IMG/VR virus record: IMGVR_UViG_3300045789_000711
Span: 16,933-80,932 of that record
Strand: one strand, 5' to 3'
Source of the DNA: a virus
Length of the DNA: 64,000 nucleotides
Shown: in pieces, positions 14,092 through 64,000 of the stretch
Layout of the letters: each line of letters begins with the position of its first letter
Numbering within the stretch: position 1 is the stretch's first letter
Program-made: the position numbers and the translations under genes
The notes under the pieces: model-generated
Seen by the model: the letters and a program-made list of their open reading frames with translations, nothing else
Told to the model about the DNA's origin: nothing
Database searches by the model: none

Positions 14092-14400
14092 TTATTCGGC
14101 TTGTTCGTCCTGTTCGGCTCGCTTGGCGGTGATCTCGATACCCATTGCGCGGCCTTGCTCGGTCATCCGGTAAGAAAGCTTAAGCGATTTCATATCTCGT
14201 GAGCGCGCGATTAAGCCATGTTCTGCCAGTTTGTGCATAGATGCCCTAAACGATGAAGCAAACACGCTAGGGCTTCTAGCTTTGTTGATAAGGGCCAGTA
14301 ATGCCACTGAGTCTATCGGCTTGGTAATGTCTCGGGCTTCAAGGGCCGTTAACAGGTAAAGCGTGTCACTCTGCAGTGCTGATAATCTCATGTTAATCAT
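14092..14400 (-). CDS. Winged-helix small protein
   Basis: 102 aa. ASSFRASMHKLAEHGLIAR followed by LSYRMTEQGRAMGI has the recognition-helix plus wing pattern of winged helix-turn-helix proteins. The start overlaps the stop of the 999-aa gene by 8 bp, so the two are translated together. It may regulate that unit or bind DNA as its partner. Family not identified. Confidence 0.6.
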   Translation of the reverse strand: MINMRLSALQSDTLYLLTALEARDITKPIDSVALLALINKARSPSVFASSFRASMHKLAEHGLIARSRDMKSLKLSYRMTEQGRAMGIEITAKRAEQDEQAE

Positions 14401-17392
14401 TGTTACCTGCCTTGATAGGTAGTGGCACGTTAAGCTCTGTATTGAGCAGCTTAATAAACGCTTTCTTGGTTTTTAATGTATCACTTTCACGTCTAAACAT
14501 GGGTTCTGTACTCAACGGTGAATGACTTAGCGCCCGTTTTTGGCTGTAGATAAGGTGGTTTATGCTTTGCTTGGTTAAGCTGTCTGAATGCTCACCAAGG
14601 TATTGAGTGGCATCACCACGAGGATCAATGTCTTTAAAGTCCTTTAAGAATCTATCCCATCCAAGCAATTCAAGCATGCTGTCGTTGATGTCATGCTCAT
14701 AGGTTTTCTGGCTTATCTTGCTTAGGTTTGCAAACAGGAATGAGATTGCCCTTGGTAGGTTTATGCCAAAGCCTGAATACGATAGGTTGTCTTTGTGATC
14801 TGCACTGACTAGGTAAGCCGTGACACTTATGCCATAACCTACTTTGCTATTGGTTTGCTTGGTGTACTCATCCATTTCTTCTAGAGCATGGATCATTTCA
14901 TTGATCGTTGTCATGATGGCTTCGTCTTTGTCTTCGTCGTCATCCATGGCGGTAACATGGCTTATCTGGTTAAGCATAAAGATAAGCTGCTGCTTGTTCT
15001 TACTGGCCATATTCCTTAGTGTCCGGTACTCGTTGCCGTTCAGTCTCTTTTCGCTAAGGTTAAAGCGCGCTAGTTCATCATGCAGCGCTTGGCTTACTGG
15101 GTAGGTTTGCACTTCTGAGCCGACAATCTCAGTGTTAGCTATGCTGCCATCAATGCCTAGCTGGTGGCATGCAAAGAAAGGGGTAATGCTGTTATACATC
15201 TTAACGCCATAGCCGTTAATTAGGCGGCTAGAAGCAGCAATGATAAACACTTGAGCGCCTACCTTGCTCGCATACAGTGGGACATCACCCATTTCAACGA
15301 TTAGCGCTGTAGCACGTTCGGTAGACGTCTTGTTAAAAGCCATCACCTTGTTATGGTTGTTCACTATGCTGGTGGCTGCAGCTTTAGCCTTAATTGGGCT
15401 AGTGCCGTCGTAATCTCGGTACCAGTCCATGATCATCATGTGCAAGTCGTCATCACTCATCATTGGGTAGTGTTCAACCAATATCGCTTTAATGTCAGCG
15501 GTTTGTGCCTGAATGGCCTTTATTGCCTGCCTAGCCTTAACTAAGAAGATCATAAGGTCATTACCAAACAGTCTAGAGCGGTGAAGCTTTGAGTTGATAG
15601 CAGACTCAACGAACGACGGCTTAAGCGTCATAAGGTTAATGGCGCTTCGACTTCTGCAGGGGAACGCGCGAAAGTTCTTAGTGGTTGGTTTGGGCCAGTT
15701 CTTTTTAAGCTCAATCATGAGGATCGGTTCACCACTAAACAAAGTGATCCGGCCTAGGTTCAATGAGTCCACGCCAACAATGTAGCCTTGGCCTGCGGGT
15801 CTGCTTATTTCGTTGTCCGGCATATCCCAGTCAGAGCGGTAGTTCTCATCGTAATCAACTTTGAATGCGCTCGGTATGCATGACTGAGTAAAGAAATCTT
15901 TAGGTGAGTAAATCGCTATGTCACCTTTACTGAATAGCGGAAGCTCTGCAGCCTCTATAATCTCGATAGCAGGGCTTTTCTTGCCATCCCCTAGTAGATT
16001 GTCCTCGATATCAACAAAGGTGCAATTTTGCTTGATATAGGCCTCTTCTAACAACGACTTGCCTTGTGCTTCACGGGGGAAGTCACCAAACACAATCGCG
16101 CCGCCTGATAGTTGCCTATCTTTGACGCCTTGGAGTATGGCCACCAGCTTATGATAAGTGTCGCTCATGGTCTTAAATTCGCGTTGCTTGTCTACTAGCT
16201 TGGTCGATCGTGAATAGACGTTATCAAAGAAATCATTCATTTCACTTTGAATAGGGAACAAACGGGCGTTATGTTCGACGGGTGAGTAAATGGCACTGAT
16301 ACGTTGGCCATCACGAACCATTAAGAAAGCGGCCTTGTTCATGCTGTTGCGTGTGGCCCATTGTGCAGCCGACATATCAGCGTAGTGCTTTTCTCTGCGA
16401 GTAGGTCTTATTGTGATAATGGCGCGTTCACTTGGAAATATGCGCTCTATCAATGATGGTGTTGCCTTAAGGTACTCAATGAAGAAATCAGCGTTAGAAT
16501 AATCAAAGTCTTGGCTGTCTGTGTAAACCTCATTCACGGCTATCTCTTCATCCATGTAGACCATAGATGAATACAAGCTAATCGGTTCGTTGCTGGTGGA
16601 CACGTCGCCATCAATCAATGTCACTATCTCAACGTCTTCACCTAAGTAGTGCTTCATGATGTCGATTTTAATCATCACATTGCCTACTTTGCGTAGCATA
16701 TCGTTAGACTTGCCCGTCATGGCCTTAGCGGTTTCCATCATAAGGCTGGTGGCCTTTTCAAGCGTGTTAGCCAGTTCTTTAGATTTAGATGCAGCCAGTT
16801 TGTTGGCCATGCGCCCTAACGTGGCTTGGTTCTCAAATCGTTTCTTGTGGTCTTGAACCACGCCCATGGTGCCTGCTTCCGGTATCAGCTCTTTGCTGCG
16901 TGAGCTGATTTGGTCGGGTGACGGTAGCCCAATAGCGCTATGTAGGTTTGCTTTCTCATCGGTCACACTGCTGTCTTTGCTTTGTTCAAGCAATCTAAGC
17001 AGGGCGTTTGGATCGGTTAGTGCTAACTGGATGTCGGCTTGTATTGCTTCTGCGTCATGCTGCAGTGCGAGTAATTGCTGCTTTCTAATGGCCTCGGCTT
17101 CGCTCTTAGGTACTGGGGTGAAGTCACGGGTGAAACGTTCAAAGTCCAGTCTGATGCTTGAGCCTTGTGATATACGCTTGTTGGCATAGATCTCAACGGT
17201 CTGAATATCATTTGTAATTAGGTTTTCTAAAAGGTCAGTAATGATGTAGATTTCATTGCTAACTAATAGCGTTGTTCTTTCCTCGCTATCTTCGTTTACA
17301 GGGGTGTAGCGCCAATACTCACCGAACTCAAGCGATAGCAGGCGGTCTACGCGCTCACACTCGCTTTTAACGTCTTTACTGATGTTGCTCAT
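14393..17392 (-). CDS. 999-aa orphan protein
   Basis: 999 aa, the third largest gene visible. Soluble, no signal peptide, no membrane segment, no Walker A or obvious nuclease motif. Residues about 85-240 are helical and coiled-coil-like (KRFENQATLGRMANKLAAS); the middle is mixed alpha/beta with ERIFPSERAIITIRPT and VIFGDFP-like segments; residues about 600-700 are helical. It is transcribed apart from structural genes, with a winged-helix partner overlapping its 3' end and two palindromic repeats in its promoter. That gene pair could be an accessory function (defence, counter-defence or maintenance). I do not recognise the family and do not assign a role. Confidence 0.7.
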   Translation of the reverse strand: MSNISKDVKSECERVDRLLSLEFGEYWRYTPVNEDSEERTTLLVSNEIYIITDLLENLITNDIQTVEIYANKRISQGSSIRLDFERFTRDFTPVPKSEAEAIRKQQLLALQHDAEAIQADIQLALTDPNALLRLLEQSKDSSVTDEKANLHSAIGLPSPDQISSRSKELIPEAGTMGVVQDHKKRFENQATLGRMANKLAASKSKELANTLEKATSLMMETAKAMTGKSNDMLRKVGNVMIKIDIMKHYLGEDVEIVTLIDGDVSTSNEPISLYSSMVYMDEEIAVNEVYTDSQDFDYSNADFFIEYLKATPSLIERIFPSERAIITIRPTRREKHYADMSAAQWATRNSMNKAAFLMVRDGQRISAIYSPVEHNARLFPIQSEMNDFFDNVYSRSTKLVDKQREFKTMSDTYHKLVAILQGVKDRQLSGGAIVFGDFPREAQGKSLLEEAYIKQNCTFVDIEDNLLGDGKKSPAIEIIEAAELPLFSKGDIAIYSPKDFFTQSCIPSAFKVDYDENYRSDWDMPDNEISRPAGQGYIVGVDSLNLGRITLFSGEPILMIELKKNWPKPTTKNFRAFPCRSRSAINLMTLKPSFVESAINSKLHRSRLFGNDLMIFLVKARQAIKAIQAQTADIKAILVEHYPMMSDDDLHMMIMDWYRDYDGTSPIKAKAAATSIVNNHNKVMAFNKTSTERATALIVEMGDVPLYASKVGAQVFIIAASSRLINGYGVKMYNSITPFFACHQLGIDGSIANTEIVGSEVQTYPVSQALHDELARFNLSEKRLNGNEYRTLRNMASKNKQQLIFMLNQISHVTAMDDDEDKDEAIMTTINEMIHALEEMDEYTKQTNSKVGYGISVTAYLVSADHKDNLSYSGFGINLPRAISFLFANLSKISQKTYEHDINDSMLELLGWDRFLKDFKDIDPRGDATQYLGEHSDSLTKQSINHLIYSQKRALSHSPLSTEPMFRRESDTLKTKKAFIKLLNTELNVPLPIKAGNND

Positions 17393-18494: not shown

Positions 18495-19526
18495 TTATGC
18501 GCGGCTTCTAACAGCGCGAGTGATAACGGTTGCTGTCGCTTGGATAGAGGCCGGATTGTTGATCATCTTACCCGTCTCGCTCACACAAAAGTTAACCCAC
18601 TTGTCACGACGCCAAAATGTGTCATTGCGTAGCTTATCAAACAATTCAGGCTTGATGTCGCGTGTGATTGCAAAGTGGGCCAGTTCGGCCAGTGCCATAA
18701 GCGTGACATTGTGGCCCAGAACAAGCTCGGTTCTAAAGTCTTTGCCTGAGCCTGTAACGGTATAAGAGCGCATTAGGTAGCTGATGTTGATAGAAGAGAA
18801 TAGCGTGTTGGTGTAGTTCTCAAGCACGGCTAACGCTTCGCCTTTGTCCTCAACAAAAGACATCACTTTAAGGGCGAACGCCTTAAGGGCTTTGATTGAG
18901 TAAATCTTGTCTGACTTACCGGACACGGCATTTTTCTCATACTCGATAGCATTACCAATCACTGAGCGCTTCATGATGTTAACGATTTCTTGGTCGCGTT
19001 CACTGCGGTCATTGTACGTCATACAGATAGCGGCCGATGGCTTGGCCTGAGTAAAGTTGATGTCATGGAACGCTTGTTGGCGCTGCTTAAGCGTGAGGTT
19101 ATCAAATAGCATGATGCTTACCATTTGAGACGCAAAGTTAGCATCAACGTCGGCGCGCGCTAACAACTCTTTAATACCAGTTGCACGATGTTGGCCATCA
19201 AACAGCTTAACCAAAGCAGCCATAGGAATAGATAGCGTTCCGGTGTTTTCCATACCCGTAATAGGTGAGGCTGTGAACGTACACTCACTGCTAACGTGTC
19301 CAATCACCGGAGGGATGATGTAGAAGCCGTCTTTATTATCTTGGATGTAGTTAGCCACCTTTTTAGCGCGGATCTTGTTAACGATGCGCTGTGAACGCTC
19401 GTTAACGTCTTCGGCGTCGTCCAGTTTGAATAAGGCGGCAAGTGTTGAGAATGGGGCAATCGCTTGATAGAAAACTCGACCGTTTTGCATGCCGCGTAAG
19501 GCTGGGATATTAAAACAATAGTTCAT
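18495..19526 (-). CDS. DGQHR-domain protein, DndB-like
   Basis: 343 aa. The DGQHR motif is at 110-114 (KLFDGQHRATGIKE), followed by FHDINFTQAKPS at about 148-160, the two hallmarks of the DndB/DGQHR family. DndB represses the dnd operon in DNA phosphorothioation systems; DGQHR proteins also occur alone on mobile elements. No dndCDE genes are seen here, so a role in phosphorothioation cannot be claimed. First gene of a four-gene minus-strand operon with an XRE regulator and DUF6283 protein. Could be a regulator, or an anti-defence protein. Confidence 0.75.
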   Translation of the reverse strand: MNYCFNIPALRGMQNGRVFYQAIAPFSTLAALFKLDDAEDVNERSQRIVNKIRAKKVANYIQDNKDGFYIIPPVIGHVSSECTFTASPITGMENTGTLSIPMAALVKLFDGQHRATGIKELLARADVDANFASQMVSIMLFDNLTLKQRQQAFHDINFTQAKPSAAICMTYNDRSERDQEIVNIMKRSVIGNAIEYEKNAVSGKSDKIYSIKALKAFALKVMSFVEDKGEALAVLENYTNTLFSSINISYLMRSYTVTGSGKDFRTELVLGHNVTLMALAELAHFAITRDIKPELFDKLRNDTFWRRDKWVNFCVSETGKMINNPASIQATATVITRAVRSRA

Positions 19527-33803: not shown

Positions 33804-35492
33804 ATGTCAGAAAAATATTTCGCTCGTAAATCCCAGATTGACCAAGTATCGGGCTTGGTTACTGCGGCGCTTGTTAATTCTCAAATCGACGGCAAAGGCT
33901 TTATTGCTAATGCTAATGATCGTGTTGAAGCGATTACTGATGCAGCAATGGCTAGCCCACTATTCGAGGGTATCGCTGATAACCGCGAAGCTGTGACTTT
34001 CATTGCTTCTGCTTGGGGTTCGTCTTTACAAGATTTCTGTAATACCTACGGTCACATGCCACGCGCTGATCTATTAGCGTCTACTGGTGAGTCGTTAATG
34101 GCATTAACCAACGCACCGGAAGGTGTAAGCAAGTCAATGTTTGAAAGTGTTGGCGGTAAAGCTAACTTTTCAACTTCTGAGGGTATCGACATTCGCGCTA
34201 AGACTGCAGCGTTAATCATGCCTGTTGCTTTAGCTGCTACTACTAACGATGCTGCGACATTCGTTCAAGGTGGCCGTGATGAAGTTGAATGTTTTGAATT
34301 GTTCCGTGTAAGTAACACCTCTTTCGGTGACATCGCTAAAGGCGAAGTATTAGACGAGTTTTTCTATCAGCAATTCAGTGGTATGAAACAGTCTTATGCT
34401 TTACCAACTAAGCCTGATGCAACTAAAGAGCGTTACGTTGTTTACATCTACAACGAAGCCGCGCCTGCAGAAGACACTACCGCGTTAATCAGTGTATTGG
34501 CTAACCAAAACCCAAAGGGTTGCTCATTCGTTCCTAAATCGCTTGTTTTACGCGTTAACGGTAAGGCTGTTGCTTCTTCATTAGATAATGGCGATTTGTT
34601 CGGTCAGTTCGATTTAGGTGCTGAGTCTTATAGCGTTATGCCTGATAAGGCTACACATGATGCAACTAAGGGCCGTATTGGTTTCAAAGTAAGCCCAGCG
34701 TTACCTGCTAATGCATCAATGATCATCCAGTATGACGTGGACGTTGAGACTGGTAATGCTAATGGTGCATTCCCTGAAATTAACCACACAATGGGTTCAT
34801 TCAAGCTTAAACCGCACCAATCAATCCTATCTGCACAGCACACTATCCAGTCTTACTGGGGCATGAGCCGTGAATACGGTTTAGATCTTCGTTCTATGCA
34901 AACTGCCACTATGCGTAACGTGATGGCTTACGAGAAAGACATTCGTAACCTACGCGATATGATCGTTGCTTCTTCTGCTAACCCAACGTTGACTATCCCG
35001 TTAAAAGTGGCTGATGGCGCTTACTTCAAAGAGAAGTACGAAGAGCTACACGAACACCTATTACAGCTTTCAAACATTATGATGGTGTTAACCAAAGTGT
35101 CAGGCCTAGTCGGTCTTTACGCTGGTATTAACGCGTCTACCGTGTTCAAAGCATTAGGCGCGCCGTTCTTCGTACCTGCACCTAACTACCGTCAAGTTCC
35201 ACGCGTTCACTTCTGCGGCATGTTATTTGGCAAGTGGAAAGTGTTTGAATGTCCGGTTGATCTTGACTATGCAGGCCAAAAGCTTGGCGCTAACGATGCT
35301 ATCGGTTATGCGCGCGGCGATGACTTTGCTCAAGCTGGCTTAATCGTTGGTGATGCTGTTTCTCCGACTATGTACAAGCACAGCACTGACTCACGCATGT
35401 TTAACCGTGACACGTTATGGGAATTGTCATACGGCGATATCTCACCTCGCGGCGGTGAAAACTTCTTCCACAAGATCACTATCACCAAGTAA
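33804..35492 (+). CDS. Major capsid protein (P1 gp23-like)
   Basis: 562 aa, a size like unprocessed P1 gp23. It contains the long-helix and beta segments expected of a HK97-fold capsid (SYWGMSREYGLDLRSMQT, YEKDIRNLRDMIV, FVPAPNYRQVPRVHFCGM). It has the strongest translation signal around (AAGGAAAAAAAAG) and an apparently cleaner codon choice than its neighbours, as for very highly expressed genes. It is the first gene of the main head-tail operon. N-terminal residues before about 120 may be a delta region; protease not found. Capsid call rests on position, length and composition. Confidence 0.72.
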   Translation: MSEKYFARKSQIDQVSGLVTAALVNSQIDGKGFIANANDRVEAITDAAMASPLFEGIADNREAVTFIASAWGSSLQDFCNTYGHMPRADLLASTGESLMALTNAPEGVSKSMFESVGGKANFSTSEGIDIRAKTAALIMPVALAATTNDAATFVQGGRDEVECFELFRVSNTSFGDIAKGEVLDEFFYQQFSGMKQSYALPTKPDATKERYVVYIYNEAAPAEDTTALISVLANQNPKGCSFVPKSLVLRVNGKAVASSLDNGDLFGQFDLGAESYSVMPDKATHDATKGRIGFKVSPALPANASMIIQYDVDVETGNANGAFPEINHTMGSFKLKPHQSILSAQHTIQSYWGMSREYGLDLRSMQTATMRNVMAYEKDIRNLRDMIVASSANPTLTIPLKVADGAYFKEKYEELHEHLLQLSNIMMVLTKVSGLVGLYAGINASTVFKALGAPFFVPAPNYRQVPRVHFCGMLFGKWKVFECPVDLDYAGQKLGANDAIGYARGDDFAQAGLIVGDAVSPTMYKHSTDSRMFNRDTLWELSYGDISPRGGENFFHKITITK

Positions 35493-52574: not shown

Positions 52575-52880
52575 ATGTTTGAAACAGAAAAACTCCCTCT
52601 TGCTTTGGCTGTTCTTGCGCTATCCGTGCTGGCGGGTGTCGCGTCTTACTTACAAGGTAGGCGAGAAGATCGGTTTCCATCGGGAATATTGCAATTGGGG
52701 GGTGAAATAACGTCAGCGGTGGTAGCAGGGGTGAGTACGTTATTTCTAGGGGCATGGCTTGAATACCCCGAAGCGTTAACGTGTTTTACATCTTTAATAG
52801 CGGCGTCTAATGGCAAGGAGTACATGAGCCTTGCGAGTAAGGCGTTAACAGAAAAATTTAACTTAGGTACAAAAAAATGA
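52575..52880 (+). CDS. lydA: Holin (LydA-like)
   Basis: 101 aa. Two or three hydrophobic segments: LPLALAVLALSVLAGVASYL (about 7-26) and ITSAVVAGVSTLFLGAWL (about 45-62), with RREDRFPSG between, the signature of the Phage_holin_3_3/LydA-type family. Holins permeabilise the inner membrane at lysis. Next gene overlaps by 4 bp (ATGA). Placement after the tail fibre fits a late lysis module. Confidence 0.75.
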   Translation: MFETEKLPLALAVLALSVLAGVASYLQGRREDRFPSGILQLGGEITSAVVAGVSTLFLGAWLEYPEALTCFTSLIAASNGKEYMSLASKALTEKFNLGTKK

Positions 52881-53311
52881 CTTTAGATTTTAGCGGTATC
52901 CCAGCGTATTCGGTAATTGCATTAGTGATAGTAACTGCACTCATTGACCGATTTATTGCAGTACGGGGGCGATTGCAAGTCAACAAAGTTGAGCATTATC
53001 GCAATAATGGCGGGATGATCCGTTTCGCTCTTCATTATTCAATAGCTTCGTTGCCGTCATGGTCTGAGATCCGTTACTCGCTGGTGGATAAAAACAATCC
53101 AACAACGGTGATTAGCGGTAAGACTAGGGGGCTGGACTTTAGTAAGAAAGGGCTTAATGCTGAGTTTTTACTGTTCAAACAAGACATTGTTAACGAGGGT
53201 GAGTGGGAACTAAAGATTAAGGTGATCACAATGGCAGGTCGCTTAAATCCGCTTTATAGCCTGTTCCCTGTTCAAGTCTTTTTCACTCAAACAGTAGGGA
53301 TTGTTAAATAA
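52877..53311 (+). CDS. LydB-like antiholin candidate
   Basis: 144 aa, overlaps the holin by 4 bp. N-terminal membrane segment SVIALVIVTALIDRFIAV (about 12-29), then a soluble beta domain. P1 LydB (about 147 aa) is the antiholin partner of LydA and sits directly after it. The call is by position and size; sequence similarity not checked. Confidence 0.5.
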   Translation: MTLDFSGIPAYSVIALVIVTALIDRFIAVRGRLQVNKVEHYRNNGGMIRFALHYSIASLPSWSEIRYSLVDKNNPTTVISGKTRGLDFSKKGLNAEFLLFKQDIVNEGEWELKIKVITMAGRLNPLYSLFPVQVFFTQTVGIVK

Positions 53312-53937
53312 TGAATGACGAACGTTTTAGTCAGAATAAAAAGCGTTATTTCACCGTTGATTTTGACAACGCAACCGAGCGCGGCCTAAAGCCGTTGATC
53401 AAAGCGTTCGAGAAAGCAGGGGCCGTGATAGCCGAAACAGTGGCCGATAACACATCTAAACGCCAAGATGGCCAACTGCAAAAGAAAGCCCAGTTTATCT
53501 TTAACAATGGCCAGTCTATTGTGGTGCTTATTGCTGATACTGGCGACATTACTCAAACCAAACTTAACAGCACAATCGTTCCGGTTCGTGACCTAAGTTC
53601 GATTGATAACTATGCCCGTGAATTAGCTAACCTCATGAGCAACCAGCAAGCGCGCTTTGATAAGGCGTTAGCTCGCAAGGCTGCAGCGGTAATCAAAGAC
53701 ACGTCTAACGTTAAGCCTGCTACACGAAGCTTTAACGCTCGCATTGTTGAGGCTATGCAAGCAGTTGATTCGGCCACCAGCAACTTAGAAGCTGAAAGAA
53801 AGCGACTTGATCAAAACCGCAAAGCCAGCGCCACTAACACCAGTGAACTGGAAAAATTAAAGATGAAATTAAGCGCCCTCAAAAGTGAGGAAAACAGCTT
53901 AGTGGAAGCCATTTTAGCCAAAGGGGGGACTATCTAA
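53311..53937 (+). CDS. DarA/DdrA-like defence-against-restriction protein
   Basis: 208 aa. Residues 8-130 match the DarA N-terminal domain pattern: YFTVDFDNATERGLKPLIKA, QFIFNNGQSIVVLI, LNSTIVPVRDL. C-terminal coiled coil. In P1, Dar proteins are packaged and protect injected DNA from type I restriction. Overlaps the preceding and following genes (TAATG), forming one operon with DarA- and DdrB-like genes. Confidence 0.65.
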   Translation: MNDERFSQNKKRYFTVDFDNATERGLKPLIKAFEKAGAVIAETVADNTSKRQDGQLQKKAQFIFNNGQSIVVLIADTGDITQTKLNSTIVPVRDLSSIDNYARELANLMSNQQARFDKALARKAAAVIKDTSNVKPATRSFNARIVEAMQAVDSATSNLEAERKRLDQNRKASATNTSELEKLKMKLSALKSEENSLVEAILAKGGTI

Positions 53938-56900
53938 TGTTGCCAACTAGAATCATTATGAACGCGCTTGTGTATGGCTTAAGCAGCATGCAAGTAACAC
54001 AGGCCCAGTATGAAGAGTTAGCGACGGGTGACGATAACATGCTGTTCGAGTCATGTTCACGTCAAGAGCTTGAAGCTACCTATCTATACGACAAGCCTAT
54101 CGAGCGTGAGGCGATGTTTGAAGCTATCACGACAACCGCCAAGCGTGTAGAAAGGACAATGAACGCGTTTAATCGTGAGCTTAATCGTCAGTTATCCGGC
54201 ACCGAAATCACGTCGTCAGGCGCGGAAGTGTCCGAGCCTCGCGTAAGCGGTGGCTTTGCGACTATGACGGCTCGTTTCCCGTTGTCTGATGGTCAAAGCA
54301 TTGCCATTATCTTTCATTCGCCATCGGGCAAGGCGACATCAATTGTCGCTGATGATGTGCTAATTGCATTCCGCTTTCTGTTAAACAAGCGCGATGTAAC
54401 CGCCACAGTATCGCCTGCTGGTGGCCAAGATATCTCACTTAAGCAAGTGACGTTAAAGCTGTCTAACTTAGCGGAGCGCAATTCTGAAAAGTTCCAAAAA
54501 ACTCAGTCAGCCAATAACGCTAAGAAAGATAAACTTGCTGCACTGCAGACCGAAGCTGAAACAAAAGAAACAGAGCTTGGTCAGGTGATTGCTGATGCTG
54601 ATAAAGAAGAGCAAAGCCTAGCCAGTGTTGAAAATGAGTTAGGCACTTACCAAGGCGTTGTTAAGAAAGCAGAAGACCGCGTGGTAGCCCTACGTAAGAA
54701 GCTTGAAGCATTGAGCAAGGTTAAAGAAGATAAGCCAGTCAAAGCGACTAACGAGCCTGTTCGTGCTGCTATTGGTGACTTAGCGCCTGCCCGTGAAGCG
54801 AGCAACTTGATTAACTTGCTTAAAGCGTGGGCTGATGCAAAAGATCGTGGCGATGCCAATGCACAAGACGAAGCCGAGGCTGCAGTTCTTTATGCCCGTA
54901 AAACATGGGTTGACAAGAATTACAACGAACGCCAGTGGATCAACTTAATCAATCAAATTCGTCGCGGTGTTGAAGTGGTATTCACACCGGAAAATACGGT
55001 TAAACGCTTTAAAGAGACTGGCATTGATCCTAATGCAATTCCTCGTGAGCTAATCCCAGTATCACAGTCCGGCCTATCGCCATCGGATGAGGCCGAGCTT
55101 GGCGTGATGAAACAGTTTCTTGCTCAATCAATGGAAAAGTACGAGGGCATTCTATCGGGCGATCCGGCTTGGGCTGGTTATGAAGCTAAAGCGGTACCGT
55201 TATCAATCAGTAGCCGTGTTGAGCGGTTAGACAAGCAGGGCCGTGTCGCGCTAATGGATGCGTTTATTGAGCTTGTTGTGTTGGCCAGTGAGAATGCATC
55301 AAAGCCGTTGTTCACTCGCTCTCATTCTATTTGGAACCGAGCAGACCGCGTGAAAGTACCGGAAGATACTAGTAAGCCAGAATCACCCGCAAAGCCTAAG
55401 CAAGAAAAGGCAACTAATGAGACGCTAACGTTCGTGCATTACGCCAAGCGTTCAGGCTCGCTACAAGATGCGCCTGCAGGGGCGGTAGATTCACTGCCAA
55501 AGGCCCAAGTAATCTTTAACAATGAAATGGTCGCGTTATTGGCCAGCGTTGAACTGGTTAACTATGTTGGCGTGTTGACGTATACGCAAAAGCTTACTGA
55601 TTCAGATATTACTAAGTATGACTTAGTTGAATTGGACGTAAACAAAAAGGTCGCTACCAGTACGCTAGTGGGCGCTATCGATTTCAAGGTTGAAGTCAGT
55701 AATCGAGTTGGCCGTAACTTTGGCAAGACGTGGGATCAGCTTGGTTATATCGCACCGACTGAATTGCTTAGTATCATTGCTGATGATCCACGCTTTGATG
55801 CTGTTACCCGTAAGCTGCTAATTACCCGCGCGCAAACCTACGCCGTCGAAAACAAAATCAATGTTGATATTGCTGTTAATGGCAAAACAGATTTGTTCTG
55901 GTACGGCTTAAGAGCGCGTCCGTTCTCGTTTGGTGGTGCGCCTAATATGCGCCCTAGAGTAACGCTTACTCATGAAGAGGCAGCGGCTAAGTTCCCTGAT
56001 TTAGCTAATGACAATAACGCGCTGCGCCATGGTGCCATTGCTTATGCTTACAAACTGTCAGACAAAGACGTTTATGATTATGAGCTGGTGGACTTAAGCG
56101 AACGCCAAGCCCGTATTGATGGCAAATCGTTAAGTGAAGACGACTACGATATGGTGTTGGGTGAGCTGGTCTATGCTGCGATGGATGCCTACGGCGAGTC
56201 AGCAACTAAGATATCAAGAGCCACTTTCGATTCGCTTTCTCAGTCGTTGCTATTGGCTAAGGATCCCTTTGCTAAGTTTGCTAAAAACACCGACCTATTT
56301 AGAGATCGTAAAGATAACGTTGAGCGCTATCAAGCTTTGGTTACGTTCCGCAAAACAGCCAAGGTCGAAGACTTCTTAGAAGAGTTACGTCTATATGTTG
56401 TCGAAGACGGTGCTGATACAACGGCCCAAGCCAATGATGAGCTAATCGACATTAGCGAACTGTCCAAAGAAGATAAAGACCGCCTGCAAACGCTTAATGA
56501 TGCGGGTTACGTTATCCCTAACACCAAGGGCGAAATCACGGTTACATCAACAATCCCAATGGAAGCTTACGACTTTGATTTGACCAAGACCTTTACGGTT
56601 TCTGATTTAGAAGAGTACGCCGACGTTATTGATGATATCTATGCGGAATACACCAAAAGTGGCCGCTACACTAAATCGCGTTTACAGCTTGAGCCGTTGA
56701 TTGGTGTTGAGCGTAAAGGCTATGTCGATATTAACGGTGACAAGGTATCAATCAAATTTGGTATTGAGTTAGGCAAAAACTATAAAGCCTCTAAAGACAA
56801 ACCGTTTGAACACTACTTCATTGAAGTGATGTTGAATGGCTCGAAAATGAACCGTACCGCTAAAGTCTTCGCGTCAGGTGAAAACGATGAGTTTATGTTT

Positions 56901-57233
56901 GATGGTGGCATTTTAGATCCAACGCCAGCGAAAGGCTTTGAATCATTAATTTATGAGATTGAAGATTCATTCGTGTTAACGCTTGATGATGGTGAGGGTT
57001 CCGACGTGCAAGAGGGTGGTGACAACGTGAGTGATGAGCAGGGTAAATCTGATGTAATCGTTAAAGCGCTTGAGAATGCGTTAAACAACGAGACAGACAC
57101 AGAGGCGCTACTTGATTTACTTGAGAAGTCTATCGATGAGCTTGAAGCGTTGAACGCTTACGATGAGAACGAAGCGCTTATAGAGCGTGTTTCTGATCGT
57201 GTGACTGAGTTGCTTACGTTGGAGGGTGAATAA
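53937..57233 (+). CDS. Large DarA-like polyvalent protein
   Basis: 1098 aa. Residues about 90-190 contain RFPLSDGQSIAIIFHSPSGK and DDVLIAFRFLLNKRDVTATV, the second type of DarA N-terminal domain seen in polyvalent proteins, then a coiled coil (about 190-260). The C-terminal 300 residues are acidic and helical. Proteins of this size and type are injected with phage DNA and protect it from restriction in P1. No catalytic motif identified. Confidence 0.6.
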   Translation: MLPTRIIMNALVYGLSSMQVTQAQYEELATGDDNMLFESCSRQELEATYLYDKPIEREAMFEAITTTAKRVERTMNAFNRELNRQLSGTEITSSGAEVSEPRVSGGFATMTARFPLSDGQSIAIIFHSPSGKATSIVADDVLIAFRFLLNKRDVTATVSPAGGQDISLKQVTLKLSNLAERNSEKFQKTQSANNAKKDKLAALQTEAETKETELGQVIADADKEEQSLASVENELGTYQGVVKKAEDRVVALRKKLEALSKVKEDKPVKATNEPVRAAIGDLAPAREASNLINLLKAWADAKDRGDANAQDEAEAAVLYARKTWVDKNYNERQWINLINQIRRGVEVVFTPENTVKRFKETGIDPNAIPRELIPVSQSGLSPSDEAELGVMKQFLAQSMEKYEGILSGDPAWAGYEAKAVPLSISSRVERLDKQGRVALMDAFIELVVLASENASKPLFTRSHSIWNRADRVKVPEDTSKPESPAKPKQEKATNETLTFVHYAKRSGSLQDAPAGAVDSLPKAQVIFNNEMVALLASVELVNYVGVLTYTQKLTDSDITKYDLVELDVNKKVATSTLVGAIDFKVEVSNRVGRNFGKTWDQLGYIAPTELLSIIADDPRFDAVTRKLLITRAQTYAVENKINVDIAVNGKTDLFWYGLRARPFSFGGAPNMRPRVTLTHEEAAAKFPDLANDNNALRHGAIAYAYKLSDKDVYDYELVDLSERQARIDGKSLSEDDYDMVLGELVYAAMDAYGESATKISRATFDSLSQSLLLAKDPFAKFAKNTDLFRDRKDNVERYQALVTFRKTAKVEDFLEELRLYVVEDGADTTAQANDELIDISELSKEDKDRLQTLNDAGYVIPNTKGEITVTSTIPMEAYDFDLTKTFTVSDLEEYADVIDDIYAEYTKSGRYTKSRLQLEPLIGVERKGYVDINGDKVSIKFGIELGKNYKASKDKPFEHYFIEVMLNGSKMNRTAKVFASGENDEFMFDGGILDPTPAKGFESLIYEIEDSFVLTLDDGEGSDVQEGGDNVSDEQGKSDVIVKALENALNNETDTEALLDLLEKSIDELEALNAYDENEALIERVSDRVTELLTLEGE

Positions 57234-57577
57234 TGGCCAAGCTAAGTATTAAGGAAAAAATAGCCGTTCAACGCGACAACCTATCCATTAAGAAACAATT
57301 GCAGGCTGGTGGCCTTAAGGTCAAAGAAAAGCTAGCACTGCAGCGCCAGTGGAAAGAAAACCTAAAGCGGCTTGATGTTAAGCCCGTAAAGGAAACGCCA
57401 GATAACGGCGCGTTAAGCTTGATTGAACGCTTTGTTACTGGGGCGTTTAACAACTTAGGCCTAAGTCAGTTTGTCGCTGTGATAGATGACGTCAACGGCG
57501 AGGGCGCAACACTTGATCAAGTCAAGGTCGGCGCTAAAAGCTGGGCCGAAGCTAATCAGCAATTGATAGCTGCGTAA
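57233..57577 (+). CDS. Small basic protein in Dar operon
   Basis: 114 aa. Lys-rich N-terminal helix region (KIAVQRDNLSIKKQLQAGG; VKEKLALQRQWKENL) followed by a short C-terminal domain. Starts 1 bp within the upstream stop. Probably a Dar-associated internal head protein. Confidence 0.5.
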   Translation: MAKLSIKEKIAVQRDNLSIKKQLQAGGLKVKEKLALQRQWKENLKRLDVKPVKETPDNGALSLIERFVTGAFNNLGLSQFVAVIDDVNGEGATLDQVKVGAKSWAEANQQLIAA

Positions 57578-57630
57578 CGTTAGTTAAATCTATGGGCTAG
57601 GTTCACTAGCCCTATTTATTTAGGTGTCAC

Positions 57631-59847
57631 ATGGACAAACCACGCGAATTAGAGCCGGAAAACTTAGGCAATATCTCGGAAGTAAAAACCGTATCCGGTA
57701 ACGTTGTGTTAGCACAATTTGCCATCATGGAGCTGTCACAAATCGTTATATCTAACCGGATTAACGGCGACGTGAACGAGCTTTACCCTCAAGAGCTGCA
57801 GCCAAGAGACAGAACGGATCCCGAAAAGCTTAAGCGCTTATGGCACACGCCCCAGTTAAGCCGTATGGGTAATTCATCGTCAAGTACGGACGGTGCGCCA
57901 TTTATTAATGACGACTTTGTTGTCGAGTCCGGTAACGGGCGATTGATGAACTTAACCCGCGCTTATGCGCTCAATACGGCCAGTGATTACCGTGAACGAT
58001 TAGAGCAAGCGGCGATGCAGTTTGGTATTGATAGCTCGGTACCTAAAGTAATGCGTCAGCCTGTACTGGTGCGTATTCGCATTACTGCCATGGACTCTGT
58101 GACGTTCGCCATCGATTCCAATCATGACAACGATGCAGTGAGCCAAGGCGACAAGTCGATTGTTCGTAACATGTTTGAGTCCACCAGCTTTGATGTGATA
58201 TTGAGTGACATTGAGAATGCGGGATCTATTCAGCAAATCAAAGATGCTCTTATTTATCGTGCGAACACGGCAACGGTTGGTGCTGGTGATGAGATAGAAA
58301 ACCTCGTTAATATGTTCGTTGATATCTTAGGGGCCGCTATCAAGGCGGGTAATTCAAAGGCTTACCTAGAGAACTATTCATCGCTTCACAGTGCTGCGAC
58401 GCGCTATGCAGGCTTTGATTACCCTCTGCGTTCAGAGGTGTTAAGACTGGCGGCAGTAAAACTATTTGGCATACCGGATGCCAGCGGCGAAATGGTGTTG
58501 CAACCGACTTACGTTGATGTGTTCTCATTCAATGAAATGTATAAGAAAGCGAGTAGCACAAACTATCAAGAGCGACTTGAGGCGTTTAATTATCGTCAGT
58601 TGATTAATCGCAATATCACTAACAAACGAATAGACAGGCGCTTATTGCTCGCGTTCGCTTCACCAAAAATCACGATTCAAGAGCTTGATGCTTATCTGTC
58701 CGGTCAAGATAGCTTTGTGGGTGTCGATGGAAGCCCTATTGATGACTTGAAAGCAGAGGGTCAGTTCGTTATTGATTTCATCACACAAGACTTAGACGGT
58801 GAGGGTGTTGAGGTCAGTAAAGAATCGCGCATGAAGCTGATGATTGACTCTTTGCGCGCTATCAATCTTATCTCGCTAAATGATGATGACGTTAGTACGC
58901 CCGAAGCCTTGGCCAAGGACGTGACTCAAGGCGTTAGGGCTATGCGTGATCGTTATCTTAGAAATCATTTGTCGGGCCTTAGAGCTACCCAGTACAAAGC
59001 TAAGAATGATGCCGTGGATCGTGTGACTCAGATGTTTGAGCGCCATATCTTTGAAGATGGATATGATGAGGCGTTAACCGCCATCAATGAGTATCTAGAA
59101 TTTAATAAGATGCCCGATCCTAAAAAGATTGGCCACGGCTTAATGAGCGCGATTAACACTGCTGAGACTGAGCGCTTATACGGCCCTACGATAGAAAAGC
59201 TTTCTAATTATGTCGCTGATATGGTGACGGACTTTGAGAAAACAGGCAGTCAAATAGACGTCGTGAGTAAGAATGCCGTTAAGCAGCTTAAGAAAGAGCG
59301 TATTGACGTTAATTCAGTAAGCAAGTGGGTTGATGACTTTGCGGCTGTGACGTCTAACACCGTGGGGCCAATAGCACTTGAGCATGGTGAGTCTAATGGT
59401 GCTGGGTTGGTTCGTGCTTACTCGGTACCTAACTCAAACATAATTGGAGTGGGCCGCAAGATAACCAAGGGCGTTATGTGGCATGAGTTGGGGCATAAGA
59501 TTGAAGATAAAAACCCTAAGATTGCTGCAGCGACGGCCGCGTTATTGCGCAAGCGTCACGACGACGCTAGTGCGCCAAAGGTTGTGCCATTAAGCAAGTA
59601 TCACTCATGGGCCTCAAGTAAAGAATACATGGTAGATAAGTTCATTCATGAGCCTTATGAAAGCGTGTTTTATGCCTATGATTCCTTTGGTAATCGCAAG
59701 CCAGATATTCAGGGTGTTAAATCGTCAGAGTTAGTATCTAAAGGTTTTGAGTGGTTATCGGATAAGAAAACAATGAAAATACTCATGCTTAATCGTGAGT
59801 TGCTTGAGATTATCATTGCGGCCATTGAGTATTTAAAGAATAAATAA
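57631..59847 (+). CDS. DdrB-like ParB-superfamily domain fused to zincin
   Basis: 738 aa. N-terminal region follows the ddrB-like ParB superfamily pattern: VLAQFAIMELSQIVIS (about 27-42), YPQELQPRDRTD (about 50-62), GAPFINDDFVVESGNGR with E98 and GNGR 101-104. Near the C-terminus HELGH (618-622; VMWHELGHKIED) is a zinc metallopeptidase motif. P1 DdrB belongs to the same Dar pathway; the zincin domain occurs in polyvalent proteins. It could process capsid or host proteins after injection. The catalytic role is inferred. Confidence 0.7.
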   Translation: MDKPRELEPENLGNISEVKTVSGNVVLAQFAIMELSQIVISNRINGDVNELYPQELQPRDRTDPEKLKRLWHTPQLSRMGNSSSSTDGAPFINDDFVVESGNGRLMNLTRAYALNTASDYRERLEQAAMQFGIDSSVPKVMRQPVLVRIRITAMDSVTFAIDSNHDNDAVSQGDKSIVRNMFESTSFDVILSDIENAGSIQQIKDALIYRANTATVGAGDEIENLVNMFVDILGAAIKAGNSKAYLENYSSLHSAATRYAGFDYPLRSEVLRLAAVKLFGIPDASGEMVLQPTYVDVFSFNEMYKKASSTNYQERLEAFNYRQLINRNITNKRIDRRLLLAFASPKITIQELDAYLSGQDSFVGVDGSPIDDLKAEGQFVIDFITQDLDGEGVEVSKESRMKLMIDSLRAINLISLNDDDVSTPEALAKDVTQGVRAMRDRYLRNHLSGLRATQYKAKNDAVDRVTQMFERHIFEDGYDEALTAINEYLEFNKMPDPKKIGHGLMSAINTAETERLYGPTIEKLSNYVADMVTDFEKTGSQIDVVSKNAVKQLKKERIDVNSVSKWVDDFAAVTSNTVGPIALEHGESNGAGLVRAYSVPNSNIIGVGRKITKGVMWHELGHKIEDKNPKIAAATAALLRKRHDDASAPKVVPLSKYHSWASSKEYMVDKFIHEPYESVFYAYDSFGNRKPDIQGVKSSELVSKGFEWLSDKKTMKILMLNRELLEIIIAAIEYLKNK

Positions 59848-59861
59848 GGCGGGTAAGGTAT

Positions 59862-60179
59862 ATGGAACTTATTGCGGTTAACGATGTTGATATTCTACAT
59901 ATTGTAGTCAATACGGATAACGTGTTTCACAGAGCCAGTTATCAAGGGCTAACAACTGAAATGGATGAGGCCTTTAAAAGCATTGTTGTTGGAATGGATG
60001 ATGTGTGGGGATTCTCTATTTCACCTAATGAGGCGTCGCCTTATGGTGTTGTTAATGCGTTGAAGAGCTTGGGTTACTCGTTACTGATTAGCGATGAGTA
60101 CGACAAGGCGCTTAAAGTAGCGGTTGCAGAGCTTAATAGTGATACAGCCGAGCAAGTGCAGCCAAATGTAATTTACTAG
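59862..60179 (+). CDS. Small hypothetical protein
   Basis: 105 aa, acidic, starts MELIAVNDVDILHIVVNT. Last gene before the replicon; a hairpin terminator follows at 60222. No family recognised. Confidence 0.5.
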   Translation: MELIAVNDVDILHIVVNTDNVFHRASYQGLTTEMDEAFKSIVVGMDDVWGFSISPNEASPYGVVNALKSLGYSLLISDEYDKALKVAVAELNSDTAEQVQPNVIY

Positions 60180-60254: not shown

Positions 60255-60510
60255 TGACCAATCGCCCCAGATCCACTACATGATATTCCCTGTTCTACTA
60301 CAAAGCTGGGGGTTTTGGGCCTAATCGCCCCAGTTTCACTACATAATATTCCCTGTTCAGTTACAACGAGACGGCAAATAAAAGGCTATTACCGCCTTTA
60401 ATGGGTGTTTATTGGTGCTGGTGGCCCTTAAATCGGGCTGTTTGGCTGTTTCCCTGTTCCACTACATTAAATGTCTGTCCGGTCACACAAACGCCCATAT
60501 TGACTACATC
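60222..60510 (+). repeat. Seven degenerate iterons downstream of rep (incA-like)
   Basis: Elements near CCCCAGTTCCACTACATG at 60222, 60265, 60286, 60328, 60351, 60452 and 60493, spaced about 22 or 43 bp. They match the upstream iterons (CCCCAGATTGACTACATG) at about 10-16 of 18 positions. In P1, incA lies downstream of repA and limits copy number by binding RepA. The last copy overlaps the rep stop. Confidence 0.65.
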
Positions 60511-61424
60511 TTTAATGGCACTAGCTTTGGATCTCGATTGAATACCATGAGGTAGCGCTGGCCATCTTTCCTGATAATTTCACCGTCCAAGTAACCGATT
60601 TTAATCACTGTTTTTATGGCTGCAGTGATAGTCCGGTTTTGCTCGGCTACGCTAGAGGTAAGCTGCATTCTGTCCCGTATGCGCTCAAATGAGATAGGGT
60701 GAGGATTCTCAGGCAGGGCAGACAAGAAGACATACAGGCATTGCGCCGCCTCTTTGCGTGATAACAGCTTAAGGGCTTTGAGCTTGAGCAATACTTGATG
60801 ATCAACCAAGTACAAGTCCCAAAGCTTTTTATCCGGTGTCAGGATGATGTAATCGCGCCCTACATCAAATTCAGCGCTATGAATTAAGCCGCCAACGTAG
60901 CCTTTGCCCGTGTCGCTTTGCTTGGATGATTTGGAGAACCGGATCGTCTGCGTTCGTATTCTGGTAAGTGACTCTTCTATGCGTTCTCTTAAACTTGTAT
61001 CGATGCGGCGAGTTGAGAACCCGCAGTATTTGGCGAATGCAGAGAACTTGAGTTCAACTGAGTCAGTATCTTTTCGCATTGAGCTAATGGCCCAGACAAT
61101 GCCGCACCAGACCTTAAAGTCAGTATCGAAGTTCAGGAATGAGCCTGTAATAGTTACCCGCTCATAGCCCTCTTTTCGTGTGAGTTGTAGCGTTCTAAAC
61201 TCTTTTGTTAAGTCTGCTGTGTGGCTGGTAGGTAAGTTGGCAAGCCCTTTGCCGCCGCGCCTTACAGGGGTGAATATGGCAAGCCTAAGCAATATGTTAG
61301 CTTGAACCGAGCTTGAGGTGTTTGGCTCAAACTCTGCAGGGAATAAGTGGGCTTGTTTCTGTGATTTGTTATCCGTCGTTGCAACGCTTGTGGTTACAAC
61401 GTCTTGATCCGCTACCGCTTCCAT
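60504..61424 (-). CDS. repA: RepA-like plasmid replication initiator (P1/RepFIB type)
   Basis: 306 aa (P1 RepA is 286). Residues about 50-300 align by eye with P1 RepA: FRTLQLTRKEGYERVTITGS, LNFDTDFKVWCGIVWAIS, FAKYCGFSTRRIDTSLRER, KLWDLYLVDHQVLL, RKEAAQCLYVFLSALPENP and IGYLDGEIIRKDGQR. It binds iterons and opens the origin with host DnaA. A recurrent 12-bp site ends 9 bp before the start codon, so transcription may be tied to the element-wide control. Iterons flank it on both sides. Confidence 0.9.
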   Translation of the reverse strand: MEAVADQDVVTTSVATTDNKSQKQAHLFPAEFEPNTSSSVQANILLRLAIFTPVRRGGKGLANLPTSHTADLTKEFRTLQLTRKEGYERVTITGSFLNFDTDFKVWCGIVWAISSMRKDTDSVELKFSAFAKYCGFSTRRIDTSLRERIEESLTRIRTQTIRFSKSSKQSDTGKGYVGGLIHSAEFDVGRDYIILTPDKKLWDLYLVDHQVLLKLKALKLLSRKEAAQCLYVFLSALPENPHPISFERIRDRMQLTSSVAEQNRTITAAIKTVIKIGYLDGEIIRKDGQRYLMVFNRDPKLVPLKM

Positions 61425-63330: not shown

Positions 63331-63744
63331 TTATCCGTTGATAAGCGATTCCATTTCGAGGTCTTCTAAATAGTAAGTGTAATCTTCGTCATTGGCTATA
63401 GCTGCGAAGTGAGTTGATGAATAAACAAGCCCGTTATCAACGTTGTAGCCATGGTAAGCCCATGCAGCACAACAAAGCAGTGCCTTATCTTCATAGTTAA
63501 AAACGTTCAACGTTCCCACTTCAAGCGATTCACCAAATCGAGAAATCCCGTTATTAACCAGCATTTCTTTCAAAGCCCACCAGTACATGCCATAGGCGCG
63601 ATACATGATAGGTTTACTGTCTAAAATTGAAGCAAGGTTTTTAACAAACAATGCGACAAACTCAGACTTTTCTTTGTTGCTGGTGGCCTCTTCAAGCAAG
63701 GGCGCTAGCTCTTCTTCTGTAGGTAAAATAGCGTTTTCTAACAT
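63331..63744 (-). CDS. Hypothetical protein
   Basis: 137 aa from ATG 63744 (GGGAG 9 bases upstream); a longer frame to 63822 would overlap the upstream gene. Mostly helical; contains YRAYGMYWWALKEMLVNN and an acidic C-terminus. 1 bp after the upstream gene's stop. No family recognised. Confidence 0.55.
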   Translation of the reverse strand: MLENAILPTEEELAPLLEEATSNKEKSEFVALFVKNLASILDSKPIMYRAYGMYWWALKEMLVNNGISRFGESLEVGTLNVFNYEDKALLCCAAWAYHGYNVDNGLVYSSTHFAAIANDEDYTYYLEDLEMESLING

Positions 63745-63745
63745 G

Positions 63746-64000
63746 TTACACTCCCAAAACTTTTTTAACGTTATCGAGGCCTGCTGCTGCAGGGACAAAC
63801 CACCAGCTACCCTCGTAATCATCGTTTAAGTCAGTGCTGAAAAACACACCGCTAACCAAGGCCTTAAGCTCTTCTTTGTTGCTAAAGAGTTTACCAGACT
63901 TACCTTGTGGATCGTGAATGGCAATTACATCGCCCACAGGGAAATAACGCGCTGGGTTAGTGCGCCATCTACCGCGTGATTGGTACTTGGTTGATGGCTG
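63746..64000 (-). CDS. Hypothetical protein, 5' end beyond window
   Basis: Open frame runs from the right edge to TAA near 63746; 84 residues visible, with GDVIAIHDPQGKSGKLFSNKE and SWWFVPAAAGLDN. The start is outside. A GTG at 63937 is in frame but the frame continues upstream of it. No family recognised. Confidence 0.5.
   Translation of the reverse strand, partial: QPSTKYQSRGRWRTNPARYFPVGDVIAIHDPQGKSGKLFSNKEELKALVSGVFFSTDLNDDYEGSWWFVPAAAGLDNVKKVLGV

Follow-up and report, generated by a model that had tools for sequence, protein, structure and literature searches.

Candidate Pro cleavage sites in DarA and DdrB of a P1-type Dar system from a P1-like phage-plasmid

For phage P1, the order in which the Dar proteins are packaged, their ejection, the resulting protection from type I restriction and the processing of DarA are known (PMC12810830, PMC9024508, PMC12707154). 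The P1 genes are arranged in the order lydA-lydB-hdf-darA-ddrA-ddrB, while darB and ulx form a pair next to the portal and Pro genes. P1 DdrB carries an N-terminal ParB domain and a C-terminal HELGH motif at residue 872, a fusion published in 2017 by Iyer et al. (PMC5512222). Phage D6 has the same operon, including the order of lydA and lydB, and also darB and ulx, but its DdrB of 454 aa consists of the ParB module alone and has no HEXXH. The Vibrio phage-plasmid pTHAF191d_d (NZ_CP046068) likewise harbors hdf-darA-ddrA, a ParB-DdrB, a zincin and, nearby, a DarB-like SNF2 protein. It differs in that the zincin is specified by its own gene of 380 aa upstream of a separate ParB gene, and in the size of DarA (1805 aa).

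The stretch of DNA analysed here, referred to as the window, comprises 64,000 nucleotides and corresponds to positions 16933-80932 of a virus record with a length of 80,932 bases. It shares with P1 the gene order described above and the ParB-HELGH layout of DdrB, at about 30-43% identity. DarA of the window is longer than that of P1 (1098 vs 639 aa) and has two DarA_C stretches, whereas DdrB is shorter (738 vs 995 aa) with the predicted cut located right behind ParB. With the polyvalent proteins defined by Iyer et al. it has in common the DdrB-ParB and zincin-like MPTase domains and a late or virion gene context. While these authors proposed autoproteolysis, the site evidence presented below points to Pro.

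The dar genes and the circular genome

Four open reading frames, which overlap or are separated by short gaps, are located downstream of lydA (52575-52880, +; Pfam PF16083, 1.6e-5, below gathering; PHROG 1527 holin, 1e-14) and lydB (52877-53311, +; PF16084 LydB, 5.3e-12). The first, hdf (53311-53937, +), specifies 208 aa with matches to DarA_N (1.8e-8) and PHROG 1620 Hdf-like (1.1e-39) and 35% identity to P1 Hdf (E 1e-21). The product of darA (53937-57233, +), 1098 aa in length, contains DarA_N at residues 59-183 (8.5e-33) and DarA_C in two stretches (2e-12), is 38% identical to P1 DarA over residues 20-259 (E 4e-46) and is labelled DarA-like, 'released from the phage upon host infection', in PHROGs. 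The small gene ddrA (57233-57577, +; 114 aa) was recognized by its position, a match to PHROG 1855 DdrA-like (6e-4) and weak similarity to DdrA of D6 and P1; identity to its nearest relative is 58%. The product of ddrB (57631-59847, +; 738 aa) has a PF18763 (ddrB-ParB) domain (1.3e-22); its ParB part is 42.5% identical to that of P1 DdrB, with a match in the zincin as well. Judged by their sequences, the four genes are hdf, darA, ddrA and ddrB of the P1 darA operon and not an unusual set. The coordinates of the reading frames, Pfam and PHROGs all agree with the original prediction of a four-gene operon behind LydA/LydB, and its interpretation as Dar-like polyvalent proteins was correct, having in effect been published already for P1 (PMC5512222).

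Among relatives, the length of DarA varies from ~390 to ~1800 aa, and the C-terminal part of the protein therefore looks freely extendable. Directly after ddrB, an open reading frame of 105 aa (59862-60179) shows weak matches to T4 Mrh-like families (E 0.04-0.09) and no similarity to P1 Hxr, whose gene occupies that place in P1.

An exact direct repeat of 127 bp is present at both ends of the 80,932-bp record (window 63874-64000 and C1:1-127). Since the first and the last 127 bases are identical, the record is circular or terminally redundant. Across the join, a reading frame of 2,261 aa was detected with 40% identity to DarB of P1, a methylase-helicase protein, over ~1,900 residues (E 0.0). 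Its C-terminal ~84 codons are located at 63746-64000 (-) and the remainder at C1:1-6658(-). As only these ~84 codons fall within the window, the gene was invisible when the operon was described as being without obvious DarB, a statement that has to be withdrawn. Annotation of the linear record would also miss an intact DarB, because the terminal repeat sits in darB and splits the gene. Loss or replacement of DarB is ruled out by the reading frame across the join. Adjoining darB, ulx (63331-63744, -; start chosen from the alignment with P1 Ulx) specifies a protein with 32% identity to P1 Ulx (E 2e-22), and the portal and Pro genes adjoin darB on the opposite side. With DarB and Ulx identified, all six Dar components of P1 (Hdf, DarA, DdrA, DdrB, DarB, Ulx) are therefore present.

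Head, tail and packaging genes of the P1 type are combined with replication and partition genes on a circular genome, as in a P1-like phage-plasmid. The plasmid replication initiator (Rep3; 60504-61424, -; PF01051, 1.5e-7) is 56% identical to a RepB-family protein from a Vibrio parahaemolyticus plasmid, and because Rep is nearest to a Vibrio plasmid protein, a marine gammaproteobacterium is the probable host. The operon represents ordinary P1 biology, in a relative that is distant and probably marine, and the novelty of a Dar system lacking DarB is gone.

The zincin domain of DdrB and its association with ParB

In the AlphaFold2 model, DdrB consists of a ParB-like domain (residues 25-150), a low-confidence linker, a helical middle part and the zincin domain (residues 508-738). 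The full-length model, poor in the middle and with a pTM of 0.39, was used for the linker only. The zincin domain is encoded at 59152-59844 (+), with HELGH (residues 618-622) at 59482-59496 and a candidate third ligand, E700, at 59728-59730. To survey such domains, a profile was built from six relatives and the domains obtained were clustered at 90% identity, resulting in 35 clusters. Of these, 23 were retrieved independently of the HEXXH pattern, through searches with ParB or DarA or by annotation. The relatives came from alignment-based scans. A search at the DNA level yielded nothing, and scans of viral and genome contigs with DdrB as a single protein did not find them.

Residues H618, E619, H622, E625, E665, Y676, Y681 and E700 are invariant in all 35 non-redundant zincin domains. 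Lack of HELGH conservation had been named in the original prediction as the observation that would speak against it, and HEXXH is kept in every one of the 35. A chance match of HELGH is ruled out by this conservation, and E700 is likely to be the third metal ligand. A model of the zincin domain based on 33 sequences reached a pLDDT of 90.5 and a pTM of 0.88. Its best matches in the PDB, six entries of a known zincin, the lethal factor catalytic domain, were weak (E 0.02-0.06, prob 0.66-0.82), and the zincin fold is therefore supported, not proven. A sequence search of the domain against the PDB gave no match, and Pfam returned a zincin family for none of six members; the domain has no Pfam family. 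A DdrB of 1012 aa with HEIGH is encoded on Enterobacter plasmid NZ_CP074151 (L015:8905-11943) and is absent from the gene table of the plasmid collection.

How the two domains are associated was determined for those non-redundant DarA loci, 58 in number, that are followed by 6 kb or more of sequence. Twenty of them encode a ParB-zincin fusion, and three have the two as separate genes. ParB alone is found in 11 loci, zincin alone in another 11, and neither in 13, which are mostly loci with a long DarA and without hdf. ParB and zincin are separable modules, lost singly or split into two genes among relatives.

Candidate Pro sites and their covariation

In P1, the major capsid protein gp23 is cleaved between E120 and S121 in the sequence MLE↓S, as determined by Edman degradation (PMC9024508). 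The major capsid protein of the window (33804-35492, +; 562 aa; 30% to the D6 major capsid protein) has MFE114↓S115 (34137-34148, +) aligned with this mapped site, MLE120↓S121. A predicted Pro maturation site of the same kind, MFE62↓A63 (54114-54125, +), is present in DarA, where it is aligned with LLE68↓A69 of P1 DarA. An E-type site, [LMIF]xE, occurs at DarA position 62 in 31 of 36 loci with hdf, darA and ddrA. Residues 1-69 of P1 DarA are absent from cryo-EM density, and removal by Pro was put forward by the authors as a speculation (PMC12810830), while N-terminal sequencing of P1 DarA gave no clear answer (PMC9024508). A putative accessory site, LFE38↓S39 (54042-54053, +), matches [LMIF]xE[SAGP] in 35 of the 36 loci.

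In DdrB, the predicted site MFE183↓S184 (58171-58182, +) is located just past the ParB domain, within the stretch 166-187 with pLDDT below 50 in the AlphaFold2 model, and is the sole such motif in the protein. DdrB of the nearest relative (L048), 33% identical, has MFE185↓S at the matching place. Both proteins are without the N-module extension of ~250 aa. Among ParB-DdrBs with a C-terminal extension, [LM][FL]E[SA] is found in the tested register, 412-427 aa past the ParB start, in 12 of 16 proteins, compared to a mean of 0.1 and a maximum of two proteins in a shuffle control for that register. Three of the remaining four show MFD[SA]. Several ParB-only DdrBs devoid of the motif, including that of D6, terminate at this register, and the sequence downstream of the site is not conserved. 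The short-type DdrB of L032 has no matching site. Motif counts over whole DarA or DdrB revealed no enrichment, and the case for cleavage therefore rests on position and covariation.

Comparison of the critical residue in the major capsid protein and in DarA revealed concordance in 44 of 45 records (29 E/E, 14 D/D, 1 S/S). Pro of E-type records contains two to eight LxE[SA] sequences. The related records L130, L132 and L133 show MLD↓S or MLD↓A in the capsid protein, FTD↓A in DarA and MFD↓S or MFD↓A in DdrB; their Pro has six LxD[SA] and no LxE[SA]. In L124, a P1-like phage, LLS↓A is present in both the capsid protein and DarA, and Pro contains five LLS[SA] and no E- or D-type sequences, suggesting that the specificity of this Pro has apparently changed; DdrB of L124 is devoid of such a site. 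Both the capsid and the DarA site are D-type in a deep clade whose members lack hdf and have a long DarA; the propeptides of this clade align loosely. The one exception, L129, combines an E-type capsid protein and Pro with D-type sites in DarA and DdrB. On the capsid tree, it branches as sister to the nested D clade (branch support 91) and, by this placement, may represent an intermediate state. The DdrB residue follows the switch only in the nested D clade.

On the tree, three changes are needed for each trait. An independent-pairs test, for which two pairs were usable, was not significant, as independent events are few. The internal LxE sites in Pro fit auto-processing; prohead proteases of giant phages are established to process themselves (PMC5694885). 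As expected for substrates of a prohead protease, DarA and DdrB have a motif in common with the major capsid protein that covaries with Pro; the exceptions are L129 and the DdrBs of L124 and L032.

In a literature search of partial coverage, no earlier statement of such a processing code was found. What appears to be new is the recurrence of the P1 capsid maturation motif in DarA and at the module junction of DdrB, covarying with Pro. Covariation across 45 phage records allowed exact cut sites in DarA and DdrB to be predicted, a modest yet specific and testable addition.

Proposed processing and alternative explanations

From these comparisons it appears probable that a six-component Dar system of the P1 type is encoded by a circular P1-like phage-plasmid of ~80.8 kb, and that its Pro cuts DarA and DdrB. 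Going by homology with P1, the Dar proteins would be packed in the head, where Hdf and DarA would be the first to settle on the inner face of the capsid and would recruit the remaining proteins. They would be ejected with the DNA and shield it from type I restriction. During head maturation, Pro, for which [ML][LF]E↓S is the site in the capsid protein, would also remove the N-terminus of DarA (MFE62↓A) and cut DdrB between its modules, at MFE183↓S in the window and around residues 441-458 in P1-like DdrBs. The latter cut would divide DdrB into a ParB and a zincin fragment, and the freed zincin could act in trans, either within the virion or after entry into the new host. A single cut of P1 DdrB at residue 441 predicts products of ~48 and 60 kDa, not the 76-kDa processed form cited in the passage on P1 DdrB in PMC5512222. 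With somewhat more reserve, DdrB of P1-type phages is regarded as a modular preprotein in which a Pro site joins ParB to a swappable C-terminal module, often a zincin. Maturation would free the zincin in the capsid, and E, D and S would constitute a phage-specific code, legible in the repeated internal sites of Pro as well as in DarA, DdrB and the capsid protein.

The zincin could instead function as an effector that, once injected, cuts a host protein such as a component of a defence system, with DdrB merely the carrier; a host target had also been considered in the original prediction. The packaging and co-ejection of P1 Dar proteins (PMC12810830), an active site that is conserved while the flanking modules are swapped, and the free zincin gene of Vibrio sp. 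THAF191d and others are in line with this possibility. However, D6 manages without a zincin, and protection by Dar during coinfection acts only in cis (PMC12707154), which does not speak for a diffusible protease directed at the host. Such a role is considered doubtful, yet it is not a negligible prospect.

That the zincin is an autoprotease which, ahead of packaging, processes DdrB and possibly further polyvalent proteins, as suggested by Iyer et al. (PMC5512222), is unlikely. The catalytic residues are kept in 35/35 zincin domains, PMC5512222 mentions a processed P1 DdrB along with the proposal of autoproteolysis, and 20 of the 58 non-redundant loci have ParB and zincin fused. On the other hand, 11 loci have a ParB-DdrB without zincin, 11 a zincin without ParB and three separate genes, and the junction site fits the Pro motif and occurs in DdrBs lacking a zincin as well (L010, L061, L113, THAF191d). 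Proteolytic activation by the zincin, part of the original prediction, is not borne out as the simplest explanation, since a capsid-type Pro motif covaries in DarA and DdrB. Processing of DdrB by its own zincin is thereby replaced with a specific and checkable alternative, and the zincin remains a candidate for a released effector.

That the [ML]FE[SA] motifs of DarA and DdrB are structural leftovers of common descent rather than protease sites is improbable: the sequences are homologous, independent switches are few and DarA residues 36-39 and 60-63 sit in conserved regions, but the same residue switches in four non-homologous proteins, including five to six places within Pro, and DdrB is not conserved downstream of the site.

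A reading frame of 999 aa (window 14393-17392, -) has no match in Pfam or PHROG. A DndB-like protein is encoded at 18495-19526 (-) of the window (PF14072, E 8.7e-55); its family is associated with phosphorothioate modification of DNA. Beyond the window, the same phage specifies a DNA methyltransferase (L004:12045-12929, +; PHROG 359, E 1.8e-65).
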